From: Sphingobacteriia bacterium
GTDB taxonomy: Bacteria; Bacteroidota; Bacteroidia; Bacteroidales; UBA7960
Direction of reading: 5' to 3'
NCBI GenBank assembly: GCA_011390785.1
Contig: JAABRR010000012.1
Span: 1 to 64,000 of the forward strand
Length of the DNA: 64,000 bases
In this document: piece by piece, positions 58,193-60,317 of the stretch
How the letters are laid out: each line of letters opens with the position of its first letter
Position numbering within the stretch: the stretch's first letter is position 1
The notes under the pieces: generated by a model
The model's database searches: none
The model's input: the letters and a program-made list of their open reading frames with translations, nothing else
What the model was told of the DNA's origin: nothing
Position numbers and translations under genes: made by a program

Positions 58193-58750
58193 TTATTCCA
58201 AATTTACATCTAAACCTGCACCTTTGTATGATTTTAATACAGATTGATGCAGGTTTATTTCATTTTTTCTTACCTGGCGAAAATGCTCCATATGCAAAGA
58301 TTCAATCTCCTTTTCGAGCAATGAAAACTCATTCATAAGAAGAAATTTGAACTTTAGCAGGGCACTCAAAGAAAAAGACTTTTTCCAAAGCTCTGTAAAA
58401 TTGTCTATATAGTCAGTAATTTCCAAAATATTATCAGCTATATCATTCTTCATCTCATATAGATTGTTCAAAATTTCTTTCTGTTGGGCAAAATCCACTT
58501 TAGAACTCTTAAGCTCTATTAAAGAAGTAATATGATTTTGAAGTTTTGGAATACCAGTTTCAAGCTTTTGATTGGCATCATAGCATATTTGCCTGAATCG
58601 GGTAAGGAGTATAAGATCAGATTCTACTTTGGCAAAGCCTCTATCCATTGAAGTAAATAATTGGGCCGTACCTTTAATTATTTTTTCAATCCTTATAAGC
58701 TTCGTTCTCATATTTAAGCTGTTTTGGTTTGGAGAAACAATATTAAGCAA
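58193..58750 (-). CDS. Hypothetical helical/coiled-coil protein
   Basis: 185-aa ORF with long charged helical stretches; no family recognised. The start could also be the ATG at 58711 (MRTKLIRIEKI). Confidence 0.6.
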   Translation of the reverse strand: MLNIVSPNQNSLNMRTKLIRIEKIIKGTAQLFTSMDRGFAKVESDLILLTRFRQICYDANQKLETGIPKLQNHITSLIELKSSKVDFAQQKEILNNLYEMKNDIADNILEITDYIDNFTELWKKSFSLSALLKFKFLLMNEFSLLEKEIESLHMEHFRQVRKNEINLHQSVLKSYKGAGLDVNLE

Positions 58751-59051
58751 ATAATATCAAATAAAAATTGGGGTTTACCAGTCAGAATTCTTATTATGAA
58801 TGATTAATAATTGTCTTGGAAGGTTAATTTTACTGTTTTAGCCTTTTTAATGTAATTTGAAAATTTAATAAAATCATAATACAATGATTTTATGATTTAT
58901 ACGAATTTTTGTTGATAAGTTTTTACTGATTATTGTTCTATTTAATAGGTTTAATAGGTTCATATTGTTCATGTAATAAATTGTAAGTTAACAGAAATCA
59001 TGAATATGTAAAAAATGCGACATTTATTGCGGTTAAATTAAATAAATAAGT

Positions 59052-59059
59052 TAACTTTG
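59052..59059 (+). promoter_or_regulatory. Putative -7 element (TAACTTTG) for the ncRNA candidate
   Basis: TAnnTTTG match ~25 bp upstream of the long 5' helix; -33 element weak (ATTG at spacing 22). Confidence 0.4.
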
Positions 59060-59065
59060 ATGCAT

Positions 59066-59233
59066 CCTTTTTTTCCAAACCATGAACCGGGTAATGCCGG
59101 CTATTATTACAGAATCGTTGCTTCAAGGATTTGATCTTTGACAAATGATCTAAGAAGAATAGCGTTTTCAAATTGTTCAGCTGTCATGGCATAATGAAAA
59201 CGGCCGGTGTTGCCCGGGTTTTTTGGTTTTTTT
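59066..59233 (+). ncRNA. Structured ncRNA candidate with 6S RNA-like architecture
   Basis: Closing helix of ~18 bp with one bulge (AACCGGGTAATGCCGGCT 59085-59102 with CGGCCGGTGTTGCCCGGGTT 59201-59220), internal open region, distal stem (CGTTGCTTC 59116-59124 with GAAGAATAGCG 59154-59164), 3' T tract. Confidence 0.55.
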
Positions 59234-59336
59234 TATGAAAGGTTCGCAAACGATTGCAGCTAATAATTGAATGTAAAAAAACAGGATTATGGTTAAAAAT
59301 TAAAACATAGCTTGATTTTCGCCAAAATATTACCAG

Positions 59337-59362
59337 CCAATCTCAATTGAGGTTGGTTTTTT
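59337..59362 (+). terminator. Rho-independent terminator
   Basis: CCAATCTC-AATT-GAGGTTGG followed by TTTTTT. Confidence 0.7.
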
Positions 59363-59417: not shown

Positions 59418-60317
59418 TTGAAACATCCTGTTATTGAGTTCAATAAAAGTATGCAAGCCAATATTTCTGGTTTAATAAGACATTATAATAATCAGGCTGT
59501 TTTGCATTTGAGTAGAAAAACCCAGATAAACTATCATGTTCATCAATCAAGGCTTTGTTGTAAAAGAATCAGGAGTATTCTAAGACTGGCCCGACCCGCT
59601 TTAATAAATGATGATTACAGGTTTTTTAACCGGTTTTATCGTGATGCTTCAAGAAGAATTGCTCAGGCTCGCGATTTAACTGCACTTATTGAAACAATTG
59701 ATCTTTTAATATCAGGAACATCGAGTTCGAAACTGGTAATATTTCTTACCAGGGAGAAACACAGGTTATTTATAAAGCGAAAAAACTTGCTTAACAGCAC
59801 AGATTTTAAGAATCAAAAACAAGAGATTTCAGATCTTTTTGTTGCAGCTGAAACGAAATTGGAGAATATCTCTATTAAAGACAATGAAATTACCCTTTTA
59901 GGTAGTGGAATTCTTAACACCTATCATAAAGGTGTTATTTTTTGGGAATTGAATCTGAAGAATAATGATTGTCATTTAATGCATGAATGGAGAAAACAAG
60001 TAAAATATTTCTGGTATCAACTGGTTGTTTTAGAGCCATTATGGCCAGTTATTTTTGAAGCTTTGGCCAGAGAATTTCAAGCTTTAAGTAAACTATTGGG
60101 GCAATACCAGGATCTGACTTTATTGGAAATATATTTAAAAGAACAGCGAGAAAAAATCAATTTTCCCAATGAACTTGCAGTAGGGTTAAGAATTATTACA
60201 TTAAGAAAAAAGGATTTAGCTAAAAGGTCTTTGCATTTGGGTGATAAATTATTTGCTTCACAAAAATGCAAAGGCCTTTCCGGATGGTTTAAATTTCTTT
60301 TAAATACAATAGGTTAG
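59418..60317 (+). CDS. CHAD domain-containing protein (probable TTG start)
   Basis: INYHVHQSRLCCKRIRSILRLARPAL and LMHEWRKQVKYFWYQLVVLEPLWP, His/Arg/Lys-rich repeated helices typical of CHAD. Confidence 0.82.
   Translation: MKHPVIEFNKSMQANISGLIRHYNNQAVLHLSRKTQINYHVHQSRLCCKRIRSILRLARPALINDDYRFFNRFYRDASRRIAQARDLTALIETIDLLISGTSSSKLVIFLTREKHRLFIKRKNLLNSTDFKNQKQEISDLFVAAETKLENISIKDNEITLLGSGILNTYHKGVIFWELNLKNNDCHLMHEWRKQVKYFWYQLVVLEPLWPVIFEALAREFQALSKLLGQYQDLTLLEIYLKEQREKINFPNELAVGLRIITLRKKDLAKRSLHLGDKLFASQKCKGLSGWFKFLLNTIG

Follow-up and report, generated by a model that had tools for sequence, protein, structure and literature searches.

Comparative analysis of the 64,000-nt stretch of DNA studied here (hereafter the window) and of related genomes points, on balance, to a new single-copy family of Bacteroidales small RNAs (sRNAs) that would belong to a LacI-family/Sus sugar-uptake regulon and repress the translation of SusC. 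The evidence, all of it computational, comes from a conserved structured RNA at 59066, an operator-like box common to the RNA locus and the susC locus, and conserved complementarity between the RNA and the start of susC. Some 170 nt long, with a second form of about 300 nt also possible, the RNA would be transcribed from its own housekeeping-type promoter and, across most of the species in the genus, would base-pair through an inner segment with codons 5–9 of the susC mRNA. By analogy with the FopS sRNAs, such pairing may block the initiation of susC translation and hence repress the transporter; the most likely role of lowered SusC synthesis, the sign of which we infer, would be to keep the sugar regulon quiet or balanced. 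The LacI-family regulator encoded beside susC would mark both loci through the box, its presumed operator.

Fold and conservation of the RNA

The RNA is flanked by a 185-aa gene on the minus strand (58193–58750) and by a CHAD-domain gene that starts at 59418 on the plus strand. A sequence-only reading of the window had proposed at this position an unannotated structured RNA with a promoter and terminator of its own, and this proposal holds: the minimum free energy is −55.2 kcal/mol compared with −36.8 ± 3.7 in 200 dinucleotide shuffles, none of which equals the energy of the RNA (z = −4.9), the element is conserved, and the anticipated TAnnTTTG-like element, downstream U-tract and long closing helix extended by AAACC/GGTTT are all present (Table 1), the first of these as a perfect match. 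The start of the RNA was placed from the promoter and the invariant CATCCTTTTTTTCC, and its length ranges from 171 to 184 nt across the genus copies. The same reading saw no ORF here, and indeed the one short frame, starting from an internal ATG, varies in length and sequence among relatives; a small-protein gene was accordingly rejected, the frame being unconserved and the ATG being replaced by ATT in the sister genus.

Table 1. Features of the RNA locus in window coordinates.
Feature	Position	Strand	Evidence
Candidate −33 element TTG	59027..59029	+	22 nt before the −7 element; spacer of 19–21 nt in 10 relatives
−7 promoter element TAACTTTG (TAnnTTTG, perfect)	59052..59059	+	Exact consensus at equal distance from the RNA in 11/11 genus members
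Small RNA, short form	59066..59236	+	Fold z = −4.9; covariance model E 2e-26; compensatory changes
Invariant unpaired 5′ end CCTTTTTTTCC	59066..59076	+	Identical in all genus members and the sister genus; mean unpaired probability 0.87
Closing stem, 5′ arm (AAACC, then AACCGGGTAATGCCGGCT)	59077..59101	+	Fold, compensatory changes, covariation; AAACC at 59077–59081, arm at 59084–59101
Inner segment, carrier of the susC-pairing seed GGUAAUCUGGCAA in relatives	59099..59127	+	Diverged in the window copy
3′ hairpin with conserved loop TTCAGCTGTCATGGCA (59176–59191)	59161..59202	+	Pairing in 97% of cells; loop almost invariant
Closing stem, 3′ arm with GGTTT extension	59202..59229	+	Fold, compensatory changes, covariation; arm at about 59202–59219, GGTTT at 59225–59229
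U-tract of first terminator T1	59227..59234	+	8 T here; 8–9 T in all genus members
LacI-type operator (predicted) CGCAAACGATTGC	59245..59257	.	Distance to the U-tract 10 nt in 11/11; rare 13-mer also present in the lacI–susC intergenic region
A-rich complement AAAAAAACAGGAT of the RNA 5′ end, present in the long form alone	59275..59287	+	Pairing energy −6.3 kcal/mol in the window, reaching −12.8 in relatives
Second terminator T2 (hairpin of 10 bp, then a T run)	59335..59362	+	Same position in relatives

The consensus structure, derived from an alignment of ten sequences, comprises 30 pairs, six of them with compensatory changes, as expected of a structured RNA and as a comparison across relatives had been predicted to reveal. 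In the two main helices (28 pairs), the fraction of paired cells is 98.2%; none of 500 shuffles reaches the observed covariation score, and sliding the register lowers pairing to 34–51% in every case. The second stem foreseen in the sequence-only reading exists, but it directly adjoins the closing stem at its 3′ arm rather than lying distally across a bubble, so that the fold is a multibranch junction. Likewise, the unit probably extends beyond the proposed end at 59233, because the LacI-type operator and T2 are conserved downstream.

A search of 11 other genomes of the genus recovered homologues with 72%–75% identity in nine, and one further genus copy resides in a public contig, PWLN01000347 (filed as Balneolaceae), bringing the family to 11 genus genomes and two of a sister genus, with a single copy per genome and covariance-model E-values of 1e-26 to 1e-35 across the genus. 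The genomes compared are mostly draft MAGs, and the failure of the covariance model to detect a copy in two genus genomes may reflect their incompleteness. Judging from contig titles (CSSed isolates), the carriers are presumably for the most part Bacteroidales MAGs from soda-lake sediment. The two sister-genus copies (L079 and L080), recovered with the covariance model of the 59066 RNA, R1 (E 2e-4 and 5e-4), are shorter and share with the genus copies the promoter, the CCTTTTTTTCC 5′ end and the closing stem; both the LacI box and the susC seed are absent from them. R1 detected no copy in 295 other genomes of the order, and a search of GTDB genomes with the exact 5′-end pattern returned only these two genera, plus chance matches. 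Short BLAST matches outside the genus (L011–L013) were set aside as chance or generic terminators.

The gene order accD-accA-carboxylase-58193–58750 gene-RNA is retained wherever contigs allow. The last of these genes, divergent from the RNA, encodes an uncharacterised protein of 165–185 aa with no Pfam family above the cut-off.

A shared LacI-type box and complementarity to the susC start

The box, CGCAAWCGWTTGC, is a palindrome of the LacI type with a central CpG and is found behind the U-tract in every genus copy. The intervening distance is exactly 10 nt in 11/11 genomes despite the variation in RNA length (two rows scripted as 21 were measured from an earlier T run and are taken as 10). 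In six genomes, the 13-mer has only two to four unique sites each (reversed control, 0), one invariably at the RNA and one invariably between a LacI-family gene and susC; the same lacI–box–susC arrangement recurs in three additional genus genomes in which the susC start could be read. As expected of a LacI-regulon member, the RNA locus shares the operator-like sequence with the regulator's own locus. The box lies 77–79 bp upstream of TAnnTTTG in 9/9 susC promoters, a placement that looks activator-like. Pfam searches confirmed LacI, the SusC-like TonB-dependent receptor, SusD and SusE/F at this locus, and the starch-type gene set suggests alpha-glucans as the substrate. Six genomes (L140–L145) also have a second conserved motif, resembling CTGACAATCAACAATTTG and possibly bound by another regulator, in the interval from the LacI box to the susC −7 element.

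The susC gene begins AUGGURAARARAAUUGCCAGAUUAU, and the segment that follows the 5′ arm of the RNA in relatives reads GGUAAUCUGGCAA. This inner segment is complementary to susC codons 5–9 in eight of the nine species examined, with 13 contiguous pairs (G-U allowed) at susC +14 to +26 in G002, G003, G007, G008 and G010. In G005, G009 and G011 the pairing is interrupted; a U-to-A substitution in the G011 RNA re-forms one pair with the altered susC of that species. Helix energies sum to −157 compared with −96 ± 7.7 in column permutations, none of 1000 being as low, a result to be read with the relatedness of the nine species in mind, which makes them non-independent. As the seed was first noticed by eye and tested afterwards, the permutation test spans the whole interior segment. 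An earlier permutation test with lax mismatch scoring had given 2 of 500. Contiguous helices with permutation controls were used because whole-molecule duplex energies were uninformative and an unrestricted ranking of windows placed susC best only in G002. The starts of susD, lacI and susE gave no comparable pairing signal, and AWTGCCAGATTAT, which occurs one to three times per genome, takes a gene-start position only at susC. The Ile and Ala codons of the seed region (ATT and GCC) are invariant in the nine species, whereas nearby Val and Lys codons vary. The seed is only 40%–70% unpaired in the predicted folds. Pairing within the first nine codons of a message is expected to hinder the initiation of translation.

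In the window copy (G000), the RNA, the box and the second terminator are intact and the seed is lost, the segment having diverged to GGCUAUUAUUACAGAAUCG; the susC gene of this genome keeps the target sequence. No comparable pairing was found between the window copy and its own susC start, nor did the diverged segment yield an alternative target among the seven SusC-like starts that lie in the 1.6 Mb covered, a third of the genome. The claim of susC targeting therefore concerns the family in the genus, and not this genome.

Two elements, CCUUUUUUUCC at the invariant 5′ end and UUCAGCUGUCAUG in the loop, are better conserved than any other unpaired part of the molecule and persist in the window copy, where the seed is lost. 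This speaks for another arrangement, in which these two elements make the main contacts, with other messengers or with a protein, and the susC match is secondary. We consider this possible but doubtful: the match to susC is both strong and specific, the searches revealed no other target, and neither element pairs significantly with the starts of susD, lacI or susE. Extending the comparison of the 3′ loop and the 5′ end to susC starts as well gave no convincing pairing (6 of 300 in the permutation test for the 5′ end with susC). We thus continue to favour pairing of the inner segment with susC.

Tandem terminators and the possible role of the box

In every genome with enough contig, a terminator-like hairpin followed by a T run (T2) is present about 100 nt past the box; in G010 the T2 hairpin, too short to pass the scripted filter, can be seen in the alignment. 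A complement of the RNA 5′ end occurs within the stretch from T1 to T2, and a long transcript, in which 59066–59076 and 59275–59287 are complementary, could therefore fold unlike the short one.

The LacI-family proteins PurR, GalR, CcpA and LacI are known to act as transcription roadblocks (PMC10310618), and in the systems of PurR, GalR and CcpA, as here, a LacI-type operator lies inside the presumed transcribed region; what differs is that the operator predicted here keeps a constant 10 nt from the sRNA terminator it follows and precedes a second one. A LacI-family protein bound at the box could accordingly halt RNA polymerase on the U-tract of T1, thereby deciding whether the short RNA (ending at T1) or the long one (ending at T2) is made. 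The constancy of the box spacing while the RNA length varies, the fixed distance of T2 and the lack of a conserved promoter coupled to the box beside the RNA, on either strand, are compatible with such a scheme, which we nevertheless hold to be unlikely, since the box could instead loop DNA or titrate the regulator. The composite circuit, in which a sugar-sensing regulator acts as the roadblock that selects the RNA form and the RNA in turn controls translation of susC, the other target of the same regulator, would be slightly harder still to credit.

A terminator stem built from distant arms, two terminators in series and the location of the sister-genus copies, 45–60 nt upstream of a gene of about 440 aa of unknown function, could also suit a transcription attenuator or leader, the first terminator of which governs read-through into downstream sequence. 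We judge this improbable, as the downstream genes differ within the genus and are often convergent, and T2 closes the unit before they begin; a leader of the downstream gene was likewise rejected as the neighbours differ. A trans-acting sRNA of the Sus regulon remains our preferred reading.

Relation to 6S RNA and to known Bacteroidota sRNAs

The sequence-only reading had likened the RNA to 6S and recommended a search with the Rfam models. No Rfam family matches anywhere in the window at its cut-off, and 6S (RF00013), 6S-Flavo (RF01685) and Bacteroidales-1 (RF01693) fail to match the RNA region even at E<=5, one of the outcomes that the same reading had named as counting against it, so that assignment of the 59066 RNA to any Rfam family, these included, was rejected. 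Weak 6S-Flavo matches in the genus map to another locus. The 6S-Flavo/Bacteroidales-1 homologue of the window genome is located at G000:C118:38273-38492 (L057:1539-1683), is 91% identical to its relatives, recurs in 11 of 12 genus genomes and shows 22 pairs with compensatory changes in an alignment across its family. A covariance model purpose-built from that alignment, R2, scores, at E 4e-8 to 0.011, eight of the nine loci of other families that pass the RF01693 cut-off and finds nothing at 59066; reciprocally, R1 gives no significant score on the 6S loci. Judged by sequence, the C118 RNA is the true 6S of the genome, and with the 6S niche thus occupied the 59066 RNA represents a different family. 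The C118-type homologue scores below the Rfam cut-offs, and the Rfam 6S models miss this lineage.

The 59066 RNA resembles 6S, Bacteroidales-1 and 6S-Flavo RNAs in its long closing stem, its own promoter and terminator and its similar size, and differs from them in sequence and junction: 6S RNA has stem, bubble and distal hairpin in one line, whereas here the 3′ hairpin is stacked on the closing stem, and the 6S-like plan previously suggested gives way to the multibranch consensus. Some bacteria possess two 6S RNAs. Despite that precedent, and despite the closing stem, the promoter, the length of about 170 nt and the lack of an ORF, it is scarcely credible that the 59066 RNA is the 6S of this genome or a second paralogue, a promoter mimic binding the housekeeping RNA polymerase, given the failure of every 6S-type model to match it, the 6S homologue at C118, the junction in place of a central bubble and its confinement to two genera. 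A 6S-like outline is insufficient for calling an RNA 6S, and the actual 6S of the family has now been located, below the Rfam cut-offs.

The closest precedent for the favoured reading is provided by the FopS sRNAs of Bacteroides thetaiotaomicron, which pair near the start of the susC gene BT_3983 and block its translation, with binding to further PUL mRNAs also reported (PMC11697453). In both cases a Bacteroidota sRNA with a housekeeping-type promoter shows complementarity to a susC translation start, here in eight of nine species and not in the window copy. However, FopS is a family of 14 copies, compared with one copy per genome here, and pairs through its 5′ end rather than an inner segment; unlike FopS, the present RNA is tied to a single SusC locus and is accompanied by a LacI-type box and a second terminator. 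The criteria for the FopS type include translational repression and interaction with RbpB. GibS, another sugar-related sRNA of B. thetaiotaomicron that acts at translation starts (PMC7366714, PMC11697453), differs from the 59066 RNA in targets and seeds. The family is set apart from FopS and GibS on the basis of their descriptions.

If the favoured reading is correct, sRNA control of SusC transporters would reach beyond gut Bacteroides into uncultured Bacteroidales of soda-lake sediment, and a conserved operator would tie a SusC-targeting sRNA directly into the regulon of a transcription factor.
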